From: a virus
Virus record (IMG/VR): IMGVR_UViG_3300009702_000490
Coordinates: 1 to 20,706 of that record
DNA length: 20,706 nucleotides
Reading direction: 5' to 3' (one strand)
This document shows, one piece after another, positions 2,630 through 20,706 of the stretch. Within the stretch, counting starts at the first letter, position 1. Each line of letters begins with the position of its first letter. The notes under the pieces were generated by a model. It worked only from the letters and a program-made list of their open reading frames with translations, did not search any database and was not told the DNA's origin. The position numbers were made by a program, and so were the translations under genes.

Positions 2630-5600
2630 ATGTCTCTCAATCCTTTACTGGATGCAGACCTCGCGCACCAGGCAGAAAGTCTTTTCCAAGGAAAGACTGA
2701 TAGCTTTGAACTGAATGATTTGATTGAATTTCCTGCAGCAGTTGTTACAGATATTGGTGTTTCCTTAATTAATAGTTTCCTTCCGAAGAATGATGAAATT
2801 CAAACAGAGGATGTTCTCTCAAAGATAAGTACAGACCTTAGCGATTTCTATCTAAATCATAGAACAGGAGTTAATGTAACTTCCTTCATCGGAGGATTGA
2901 TTCTTCCTGGTGTTCTTGTAGGTAAGGCATTGAAGTTAGCCAAAGCGGGAAAGATTGGCTTAGCAGGACGCCCGTTTCAATTCTTTGATAATAAGATAGG
3001 ACAGAATAGAGATGCCGCCTTGCAACTTCTTAAGGATGGAGGAGATTCTACTCTTCAATTGATTCAAGCTAAGAGACGTTGGCGCGGCGCAGTCATCGGA
3101 CAGGCTGCTCTAGAGAGTGCTACCTTTGAGGGCGCAGTTGCTCTTATGCTGAATGGACATCCTTTCCTTGAGAATTATAATGAATCCGACTTTCTAATTG
3201 GGACAGCACTAGGCACAGCTTTTGTTCCTATTAAATTAATCTGGGAAGGAAACAGATTTAGAAAATTAGCACAAGAGATTGAGAGCAAGGACATCGCAGG
3301 CCCGGCTGTTCCGCTGGCTACGCAGACAATTATACCTACGCTGAAGGGGGCAAGGAATCTTGGTGAAGAGATTGGCCGCAGAGCTTTTCGTATTTCTGAG
3401 CAAGAGAATCTGCTTGCTAGTGATATAAATGCAACTACTCGAGAGATTGTAGATACGGAACTTGTTAAGACTAAGCGCAAACAAGCTGATGCTGTAGTTT
3501 CAATGATGACTCCTCGGTTGAAGGATACTTTGAGAAAGGCCGCAAATCTGACTGGAGATAAGTTAAACCTCGTAGGAGAAGCAAAAGATCCTTTCCTGAC
3601 AGATAGCCTTGGTCATATCCTGAGTGCAGTTAATTCTCGCTTTCAGAGCTTCATGGGCGTAGATAGATTTGATTTATTCACAACCAAGAGTGCTGTTTCT
3701 AAGGAAGCTGCGAAGGATTTAGGAATTAAACATGTCTTTGTGGATGCTAAAGATTCTGGTGGTGTCGGAATAGAATCCTTTGAAGGCGGCACTATTGCCG
3801 ATGTTCAAAGCTTTCTGCGATTGGGGAAGCTAGAGCCTTTTGCTTCTGAGACGAATGCTGCTAAGGCTATCTCTGAAAGCTCTGGCAGAGATATTACAGA
3901 GTTATTCAATGGAGATAAGATTCGTGTAGGCAATACTGATGTTCAGCTCCAGCGACAGGAGAATCATTTTACTCTTACACTGTTCGATTCAGATAAGGAG
4001 ATTGCAGAAAGGAGCCAACTTCGTAAGTTCGTTCAGGATACAGTAAGGATAATTAATAATCCCAATGCTACTATGGATGTCAAGATAGTCCAGACTGAAA
4101 TTCCTGTTGCAGGTCAGGGAGAACTTTCAAAGTTCTTCGACAAGGCACAGAAGCTTTCCGAGAGGGAAGCCAAGTTCTTAGTAGATGATACCGTTGGTAA
4201 CGCTTCTATGACACCTGGACAATTTACTGGAGAACAGCTTACAAATCCAAGACAGTTCTATATCTCTGGAGAAGGTCTAGCTACTGGACAGAGATTAATT
4301 GGTCCTGTCACAGGGGCTAGAACCTTTACCGATGTAACTCCTGAAGGTGGAAAGGTTGCTTTAATTGAAATTCCTAAGAATACTCGGATAGCTACTCCTG
4401 AGGACCTTCGTGCGCTCCGTGAAGTAGCAGCAGACCAAGGGATTAACTTCTTCAAAGGAAATAGAGTTCTTCCACTTGATAAGCTCATCACTCCAGAGAC
4501 AACTAGATTCTTGGCTAAGCAGGGCTTTGCTGGTGTGGATGTTAATCTTACTAATCCTGCACGAAGAACTTTTTCTACTCTTGGTGTTCATCTTTTTGGA
4601 AAGGGCGCTATTGTTCGACAGGGCGAGGTTGCTCAATCCCAACTTATAAAGGCAAGAGGACTTCCTGTATTTCCAAATGAACATGAGATTGCAGTCTATT
4701 CTCCTTTCCATGGGCGAGTTCTTCCTGCTTCTCAAGCGAAATTAGTTCTTGGAGCTGCGGATATTGAAGGTGGCTATGTCAGGAACTTTAAATATACTAT
4801 TGGTAAGATAGTTTCTGGACTTACTGACTTCGCTCCTTTTAGAGATGCTACTCATATTACCGAGGCACAATATCTGGATGCTATTGCGGCACTTCCTCAA
4901 GGTAAGTTTATTCCCAAGGTTATTGATGTTGCTATTGATGACCTGCCTAGGCTTAATGCGATAAGCACTCGGCCGGACTTAGTAGATAAGGTCCGTCTTA
5001 TTGGCCCAGGAGGAAAAGCCATCTCGACGGCAGGCGATCTTTCTTCTGAGCAGCTAACTGCTGTTCTTAACAGTGCAAAGGTAGAATGGGCAAGAGCTTT
5101 GCATGAGCGCGGTTATGCTATTGAACAGATAGTACGCTATACGAATACTCCTCAGAATACTGTTGAGAAGTTCTTGGCTGCGGATTTTAATCCCGAGCTG
5201 CTAAGAGACTTTGCAGATAAGACTGCACAGTTTCAAATCTTTGCTAGCAGTGAAGCAGGTTCGATAGCTAGATATCTGCGGCCGAAGATGCTTAAGCTTT
5301 CAGGAGATAAGCTGAATAGTCAGGACCTGATTCGTAACCGACAGATTCAGGAGTATGATAGGAAACTGCTTGATAATGCCGCAGATGCCGTAATTGAAGA
5401 AGTTACTAGTATTGCAGCTTCTGAAGTTCCTCTAGTTGGTGCGCTTATGGATATTGTACGTGATTCTCGCTTTGCTACTTTGATAGAGAATGGCCGCGAA
5501 TTCTTCACCAGCTTTGGTCTAGGAAAGTCTACAATAACTTCCAGAGATTTTACTCTTAGAAATCTACCTACAGTTGATGGAAGAAAGCTTGGCGACTTAG

Positions 5601-15485: not shown

Positions 15486-15513
15486 TATCTTATCCTTTGG
15501 AAGAGGAAGGGCC

Positions 15514-15535
15514 GCCCCGCCATCCTTGGCAGAGC
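15514..15535 (-). promoter_or_regulatory. Possible RNA hairpin in the spacer after the SSB-like gene
   Basis: In the leftward transcript an 8-base-pair stem forms between GCUCUGCC and GGCGGGGC with a 6-base AAGGAU loop. Two of the pairs are G-U, so the stem forms in the leftward RNA but would be A-C mismatched in a rightward RNA. It sits in the only intergenic gap over 20 bases inside the operon (15486-15546). It is followed by pyrimidines but no U-run, so a transcript-processing or stability element, or a weak attenuator, is more likely than a classic terminator. Confidence 0.35.
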
Positions 15536-15546
15536 TTTCCTTTCTG

Positions 15547-19471: not shown

Positions 19472-19698
19472 TAACGAACTCCAGTTAAGGGAATAAGAAC
19501 CGTATCATCCCAGATGAAACGAATATCTTTTAATGGGATGCCACGAGCTTGCTGATTACGAATATAATCGCGCTGAAAGGCTATCAGCTCTGATTCCATG
19601 CAGCGTACCGTGAAGCTGCCCGCACGAGTTACGATGGTGAAGTGGCGCTTGGGCTCATCTTCAGGATACGGCCAGCGAGACTGGGAATTGTAAGGCAT
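19471..19698 (-). CDS. Small unknown protein
   Basis: The protein has 75 residues. The N-terminus is polar and aromatic (SRWPYPEDEPKRHF). It then alternates two strands (FTIVTRAGSFTVRC), a basic helix (FQRDYIRNQQARG) and a closing strand (FIWDDTVLIPL). No family is recognised. An AGGAG 7 bases upstream supports the start. Its stop overlaps the start of the P-loop gene and its start overlaps the stop of the dNMP kinase gene by 1 base, so all three are coupled. Confidence 0.6.
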   Translation of the reverse strand: MPYNSQSRWPYPEDEPKRHFTIVTRAGSFTVRCMESELIAFQRDYIRNQQARGIPLKDIRFIWDDTVLIPLTGVR

Positions 19699-20258
19699 TA
19701 GAATGCTCCTTTATTGTAAAGTTTGAAGACTTGTGTTTGAAAGCCCAAGAGACTTAGGCTTGGTGGATTTTCCAGAATAAAGTCCTGGTCCCAGATAGGA
19801 AGCCGATGTTCGCTGGCATGTTCAGGAGTTTCTTCTTCTGTTTCTGTGCGGATAACATGAACAAGCCCTCCGTGATTTCTTACCCAGACTGCTTCATTCT
19901 CGAAGCGAACATCGTCGATGAGAATAATAGCATTCATTGGGAGCTCAGCTTTCTTCACGCGATTTTCTAGATGGCGAATCCATATATCCTCGCCAAAAAT
20001 ATTCCTTCCTGCTTCAGTTCCTACTTGCTGAAGCATCTCTCTTGCTGTAAGCTTCCAGAAAGGATGAGGTTTATCTTCTCTTTTGTGCGTTCTTAGATAG
20101 CTAAGGGAAACGTCGAAGATTTTCGAGGCCGCATCATAGACGGGAGCGGCGAAGGAATAAGACTGATAGCGGGCCTCAGCCTTTAGAAGAGTATGTGCTG
20201 CGGTACTCTTTCCAGAACCAGCTAGCCCAGTGAAACCAATTACTTTATTTAGCATCAT
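19698..20258 (-). CDS. Deoxynucleoside monophosphate kinase
   Basis: The enzyme phosphorylates dNMPs to dNDPs and is family-related to the T4 gp1-type kinases. Motifs, numbered from the later Met (20255): P-loop GLAGSGKS (10-17), SYSFAAPV, RTHKREDKPHP, TAREMLQQVGTEAGR near 63-78, EDIWIRHL and LIDDVRFENEA. I take the start as the ATG at 20256-20258 or the adjacent one at 20253-20255 (186 or 185 residues), because a GGAG at 20266-20269 is 7 bases upstream. An outer ATG at 20294 gives 198 residues but would overlap the upstream gene by 50 bases. It works with the dUTPase in supplying dNTPs. Confidence 0.9.
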   Translation of the reverse strand: MMLNKVIGFTGLAGSGKSTAAHTLLKAEARYQSYSFAAPVYDAASKIFDVSLSYLRTHKREDKPHPFWKLTAREMLQQVGTEAGRNIFGEDIWIRHLENRVKKAELPMNAIILIDDVRFENEAVWVRNHGGLVHVIRTETEEETPEHASEHRLPIWDQDFILENPPSLSLLGFQTQVFKLYNKGAF

Positions 20259-20577
20259 TTTCTTTCTCCATTGTTTCTCGTATAATGAGTACACTTATGA
20301 GGCCAAGAATATCTTGGACTGCTTCATCAAAGGCTATCTGGTCTTTCATTCTTTTCGCATGACATACTTTGTAATAAGCAGAGAATTTACAATACTTTGC
20401 TTTCGTATACTGTTCTACAGGACAGCCAAAGCAATCCATAGCGGGATGCGTATGTATTCTATACTTATTGCATAGAGGACAGGCATCTCCACTAGTATCC
20501 GCATTGAGAACACCCGCTACCTGATTATCTAGCCAATGTTCTTCCGTTGCCTTAAGTAATTCAAGTCTAGTCGTCAT
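20245..20577 (-). CDS. Cys-rich small protein, first gene of the leftward operon
   Basis: The protein has 110 residues. Six cysteines lie at 33, 36, 49, 52, 63 and 72, with two CxxC pairs (CPLC, CFGC) and a CPVEQ segment, so metal binding, most likely zinc, is expected. The LKATEEHWLDNQ start and the CPLCNKY/CFGCPV pattern resemble a small family widespread in phages, of unknown role. The C-terminal half is helical. AGGAG (20586-20590) lies 8 bases before the ATG, directly after a tandem heptamer array. It overlaps the kinase start. Confidence 0.68.
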   Translation of the reverse strand: MTTRLELLKATEEHWLDNQVAGVLNADTSGDACPLCNKYRIHTHPAMDCFGCPVEQYTKAKYCKFSAYYKVCHAKRMKDQIAFDEAVQDILGLISVLIIRETMEKENDAK

Positions 20578-20585
20578 GGCGGCGG

Positions 20586-20590
20586 CTCCT
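20586..20590 (-). promoter_or_regulatory. Ribosome binding site of the operon's first gene
   Basis: AGGAG on the minus strand lies 8 bases before the ATG at 20577, separated by a CCGCCGCC spacer. The last repeat unit abuts the Shine-Dalgarno directly. Confidence 0.85.
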
Positions 20591-20632
20591 AGCGATTAGC
20601 GATTAGCGATTAGCGATTAGCGATTAGCGATT
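20591..20632. repeat. Tandem heptamer array, six perfect copies of AGCGATT
   Basis: Six head-to-tail copies of the 7-base unit AGCGATT (AATCGCT on the transcribed leftward strand) occupy 42 bases, preceded by a T and followed by AAACC. No copy differs. The array sits in the 5' leader of the leftward replication operon, abutting its first Shine-Dalgarno. Possible roles are iterons for an origin-binding protein, an operator array, or a slippage-prone leader. An assembly collapse or expansion artefact is also possible. Confidence 0.95.
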
Positions 20633-20706
20633 AAACCAAGCTATCCTAGTCGCAGAAACAGGAATCTTATGAAGGGCCGATGGATAGATGTTACGATACT
20701 GTGCCA
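20633..20706. other. Non-coding leader or promoter region upstream of the leftward operon
   Basis: No gene fits here on either strand. Read leftward it should contain the operon promoter or lie just downstream of it, but I see no convincing -35/-10 pair: a TAGGAT sits about 19 bases from a poor TTCATA, which I would not call. No second heptamer array and no inverted repeat longer than 5 base pairs are evident. The region continues beyond the window. Confidence 0.6.

Follow-up and report, generated by a model that had tools for sequence, protein, structure and literature searches.

The window analyzed here, a stretch of 20,706 bases that makes up the whole of a linear virus record (IMG/VR IMGVR_UViG_3300009702_000490), carries near its end a perfect tandem array of a heptanucleotide, which is most likely a spacer made by slippage and belonging to a type that is familiar from many bacteria and that other phages also have. 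Read on the strand of the neighbouring genes, the unit is TAATCGC, and the array probably belongs to the TAA-containing intergenic heptanucleotide simple-sequence repeats, having grown by slippage and been tolerated as untranslated DNA. By itself it is an ordinary non-coding repeat, and control of an entire operon is not supported. The array and its surroundings are composed of the following features.

20590..20633, minus strand: tandem array (TAATCGC)6 followed by TA, as read on the gene strand, with stops in all three frames and its last base common to AGGAG.
20587..20591, minus strand: AGGAG, Shine-Dalgarno of the 110-aa gene, overlapping the array end (from reading of the sequence; an SD-bearing start was detected 12 nt past the array).
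20245..20577, minus strand: gene encoding a cysteine/histidine-rich protein of 110 aa, directly downstream of the array, with no family match above the cut-off.
19698..20294, minus strand: deoxynucleoside monophosphate kinase gene (PHROG 139, Pfam DNMK), second after the array.
20626..20706, minus strand: possible 3' end of an upstream gene, an open frame of 26 codons (...SATRIAWFNR*) taking its TAA stop from the array and cut by the contig end.

Tandem Repeats Finder reported the array with a period of 7, 6.3 copies and 100% matches, corresponding to six AGCGATT heptamers on the plus strand (AATCGCT on the minus strand) plus two bases. The array is real and far beyond chance: its period-7 run covers 44 bases, as compared with 16 for the longest run in the remaining window and no more than 18 in 300 dinucleotide-preserving shuffles, and the iid expectation for such an array is about 3e-18. 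The heptamer AGCGATT occurs ten times in the window, six times in the array and four times as scattered singles. The description given in the initial annotation, namely a perfect six-copy array whose unit is not found in tandem elsewhere in the window, was therefore confirmed, and so was its view that the array is not explained by coding. Stop codons are present inside the array in every frame of both strands, because a TAA recurs in each unit (a TAG on the opposite strand) and a period of 7 shifts the frame from one unit to the next; moreover, the array lies upstream of the ATG of the 20577-20245 gene and overlaps at most with the stop codon of the preceding one. Two properties expected of an intergenic heptanucleotide simple-sequence repeat, a run length beyond chance and a location outside coding sequence, were thus found.

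On the minus strand, which is that of the neighbouring genes, the junction reads TAATCGC...CGCTA, then GGAGCCGCCGCC, then ATG. The array runs into GGAGCCGCCGCCATG without a gap, its final base serving as the A of AGGAG, so that the array does touch the Shine-Dalgarno, as had been noticed; AGGAG stands 9 nt, and the end of the array 12 nt, before the ATG at 20577. On its other side, the 73 bases beyond the array (20634-20706) are open in two minus frames, one of which stops at a TAA of the array. The stop of the upstream gene would accordingly lie in the array itself, an end that the codon score did not confirm; these last 26 codons gave no convincing match to any named gene. Neither a promoter nor a terminator was found on the minus strand at the junction, and a scan restricted to sigma-70-like promoters gave no match there. 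Folding of the leader RNA compared with shuffles (z 1.15) indicated no extra stability, the leader being neither unusually structured nor unusually unstructured. As a separate observation, the contig breaks 73 bases past the array, where a mixture of copy numbers or a second copy of the array elsewhere could have halted the assembly.

On sequence comparison, the window is a linear fragment, about half of the genome, of a podovirus related to Pseudomonas phage 119X (Fredfastierviridae). The genes for the giant virion protein, polymerase, primase, Sak4-like protein and exonuclease show 25-46% identity and a conserved order in EBPR podovirus 3, Polaromonas phage Tiera and Pseudomonas phage 119X, and polymerase alignment recovered 66 related loci from IMG/VR (best polymerase identity 49%). 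Peptide patterns in IMG/VR retrieved no relatives of the 110-aa gene, the kinase or the primase; no DNA-level match was found in phage records, and no relatives of the polymerase in bacterial genomes (prophages). Past the exonuclease gene, the leftward early block extends over 8-9.6 kb in the three named phages versus 2.8 kb here before the contig end. A helicase is annotated in this block in two of the three; in the closest pair of IMG/VR relatives, it lies upstream of the exonuclease gene and ends 3-4 kb away from it. Because the early block of relatives extends beyond the point where the window ends (20706), synteny suggests that the array is most likely a junction inside a longer operon, near a contig break, rather than a leader. 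The array had been described as lying in the only leader region of a 12 kb operon, a claim which fails because the contig end was taken for the operon start: the fragment is cut 73 bases upstream of the array, relatives carry the helicase and more genes further up, and the leftward block contains a second gap, of 61 nt, at 15486-15546. This second gap is G-rich and has an AAGGA site before the next gene and no repeat, the block being otherwise tightly packed.

No perfect period-7 array of at least 26 bases was found in the 69 related loci (1.07 Mb), which suggests that the array is recent or lineage-restricted. In addition, no relatives of the 110-aa gene were detected and the kinase gene occupies a different genomic position in those relatives that have one, so that the junction itself has no counterpart. 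The pair formed by the 110-aa and kinase genes (19698-20577) is missing from this position in L008 and L009, the closest relatives, and two other loci (L010 and L011) have a kinase relative directly upstream of the polymerase.

The TAATCGC unit was next sought outside this phage group. Three copies of it (23 bases) were found in no other IMG/VR contig, while at least 118 stretches of bacterial genomes carry arrays of three or more copies. Among the matches listed, the genomes include those of Cyanobacteria, Vibrio, Shewanella, Bacteroidetes, Acidobacteria, Planctomycetes and others, and none of 121 arrays lies inside a gene. At same-strand gene junctions, the listed arrays show no strand preference (23 forward versus 27 reverse). 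Among the same matches, convergent junctions are enriched (41/104 arrays versus 116/557 junctions, p=9e-5) and divergent junctions depleted (p=0.03), bacterial genes being simple ORF calls for which single distances are rough. Taken together, the lack of strand preference and the convergent enrichment argue against a promoter, operator or leader element, for which the opposite would be expected. Of the other tandem arrays in these bacterial loci, the searched unit being excluded, 69 are of period 7, as against 13 for the remaining periods between 4 and 12 taken together (among the matches listed). Since TAATCGC reads the same backwards once rotated, the reversed pattern was unusable as a control and a scrambled heptamer was used instead. 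Of 292 cyanobacterial genomes, 0 had the scrambled heptamer and 4 the real unit, one of these four being the centre genome chosen for carrying it, numbers too few to claim a preference for the unit. Our literature search returned no paper reporting the TAATCGC unit.

Heptanucleotides have been described as the most frequent class of long simple repeats in the majority of bacterial genomes, with polymerase slippage proposed as their origin (Mrazek 2007, as cited in PMC4679880 and PMC4692102). As far as these citing papers relate it, the bacterial repeats resemble the present array in their perfect head-to-tail 7-nt units, their intergenic location, the period itself, which is the commonest, and the slippage proposed for them. 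The TAATCGC unit itself is present in bacteria; the difference is that the array is found here in a phage and that its copy number is known from one sequence. Also similar are the TAACTGA direct repeats of Beggiatoaceae, Cyanobacteria and Bacteroidetes, present in 2-6 copies (MacGregor 2015, PMC4679880), which share a TAA-containing heptamer, stops in all forward frames and a position just before a start codon, some sets also overlapping the upstream stop codon. As in those repeats, the array is in the forward orientation near a start codon (12 nt before the ATG). However, its unit is TAATCGC and not TAACTGA, it is the only array in 20.7 kb, about half of the genome, as opposed to many sets per genome, and it is followed by a strong Shine-Dalgarno, which is rare (about 10%) in the TAACTGA case. 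The GGGNATC and GGGGA(C/T)T repeats of Xanthomonas and Nostoc (Rehm 2015, PMC4692102) are likewise intergenic heptamers of variable length, but they are G-rich and quadruplex-forming, whereas the present unit, with one G and a G-poor partner strand, cannot form a G-quadruplex.

Related heptamers were also found in phages. The degenerate cousin TAAYYRC in three copies is present in 115 IMG/VR stretches and TAACTGA arrays, known from bacteria, in 66, the sister heptamers in phage contigs being TAACCAC, TAATCAC, TAACCGC and TAACTGA. In one contig (L301), the TAA that terminates a 92-codon open frame is also the first of (TAACCAC)5, an array with AGGAGCCCCTCATG at its end; in another (L298), 11.7 copies of TAACCAC end in AAGGAGGCATCATG. 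As in the window, a TAA-containing heptamer array runs into a Shine-Dalgarno in both, and L301 also reproduces the order of a stop codon opening the array, AGGAG and ATG, although in both contigs the unit is TAACCAC and the genes are unrelated. Bacterial-type heptanucleotide intergenic repeats therefore also occur in phages, including in the arrangement stop codon, array, Shine-Dalgarno and start. In three further contigs (L277 at 3101-4187, L212 and L253), several heptamer arrays lie at different junctions and in both orientations, so that some phages hold whole sets.

These data support a slippage-prone repeat as the likely nature of the array, a kind already known and found here at a phage junction. 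We propose that replication (polymerase) slippage multiplied seven bases lying where two early genes meet. The array may have been tolerated because, after the stop of one gene and ahead of the Shine-Dalgarno of the following one, 7-base insertions or deletions would break no frame, and it would halt ribosomes in all frames immediately ahead of the following ribosome-binding site. A change in copy number would shift the two genes apart in 7-base steps and leave the SD-to-ATG spacing fixed; any effect on translation of the 110-aa gene is therefore expected to be local and at most modest. We infer that the array is near-neutral, an effect on translation being possible. The initial annotation had considered a slippage-prone leader changing in 7-base steps, of which the slippage-prone repeat type is retained and the role as leader of the whole replication operon is not. 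It had further suggested that copy number or a bound protein could act on the whole replication block; judging from the layout, a change in copy number would act directly on the junction gene only.

It is rather unlikely that the array serves in translational control, a role in which ribosomal protein S1, a cold-shock protein or a phage RNA-binding protein would bind the repeat in the mRNA, and the array would tune the loading of ribosomes on the 110-aa gene, its copy number acting as a rheostat. Such a role would fit an array that ends in a Shine-Dalgarno, a layout shared by L301, L298 and several other phage loci, and it has been proposed by MacGregor for TAACTGA arrays before start codons (PMC4679880), where it is itself a proposal. 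It would also fit the phage TAAYYRC arrays, which have a start codon within 40 nt more often on the sense than on the antisense side (59 versus 30, p=0.003), as well as a start codon with a Shine-Dalgarno (19 versus 6, p=0.015). This sense-side bias hints at a placement preference beyond neutrality. The phage TAACTGA arrays, however, show the reverse (sense 9, antisense 25), and no common placement rule is visible across the two sets, which are non-redundant by flanks only and whose statistics ignore phage kinship. Furthermore, the window has a single array in 20.7 kb that is not conserved in relatives, the bacterial TAATCGC arrays show no strand preference and favour convergent junctions, the structure of the leader is ordinary, and the Beggiatoaceae arrays mostly replace the Shine-Dalgarno (PMC4679880), of which a strong one is present here. 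Unlikely as well is the generalization that TAA-heptamer arrays fused to a Shine-Dalgarno form a recurrent phage element insulating or tuning translation between neighbouring operon genes, with copy number as a rheostat set by slippage. Phage arrays, provided that their copy number changes quickly, would offer a clean system for testing whether such repeats affect translation at all, which the bacterial papers leave open.

Origin iterons or protein-binding operators had also been suggested. Known iterons usually measure about 17-22 bp. Iterons, or a DNA operator of the early operon, would be compatible with direct repeats in a gap without coding sequence close to replication genes, but either is very improbable for a 7-bp unit repeated without spacing, which is scattered in unrelated bacteria, mostly at 3' junctions, and absent from relatives that have the same replication genes (69 loci). 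In the window, which extends to 20706, the arrangement of origin iterons, next to an initiator gene and with an AT-rich region, is not found at the array, the adjacent genes encoding the small 110-aa protein and the nucleotide kinase; no promoter-like match was found on the minus strand upstream of 19741, and the GC skew turns only once, at the strand switch near 8 kb. The array is thus probably neither a replication origin nor a control region of the whole operon.

Equally improbable is a phase-variable promoter or leader in which 7-base steps would switch expression as in hmw1A of Haemophilus influenzae, the one 7-bp repeat with a measured effect that we found in the literature (PMC8262952). 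This precedent establishes that 7-bp tandem repeats upstream of a gene can act on its expression, but the hmw1A repeats lie in the promoter in more than 20 copies, while the present array adjoins the Shine-Dalgarno from upstream without affecting its spacing to the ATG, no promoter elements were found around it, and the downstream genes do not encode surface proteins. Lastly, the contig end 73 bases past the array could point to an assembly artefact, which is hardly credible given that 44 bases are shorter than a sequencing read and that like arrays occur at like junctions in independent contigs.

Tandem repeats of other periods were noticed in two of the named relatives. Polaromonas phage Tiera carries a perfect 72-bp tandem duplication in a gene-free stretch near its right end (L006:43928-44072), and Pseudomonas phage 119X has a hexamer array, AGGATT in 5.8 copies (L007:23037-23071), inside its last leftward gene, where the 6-base unit keeps the frame.
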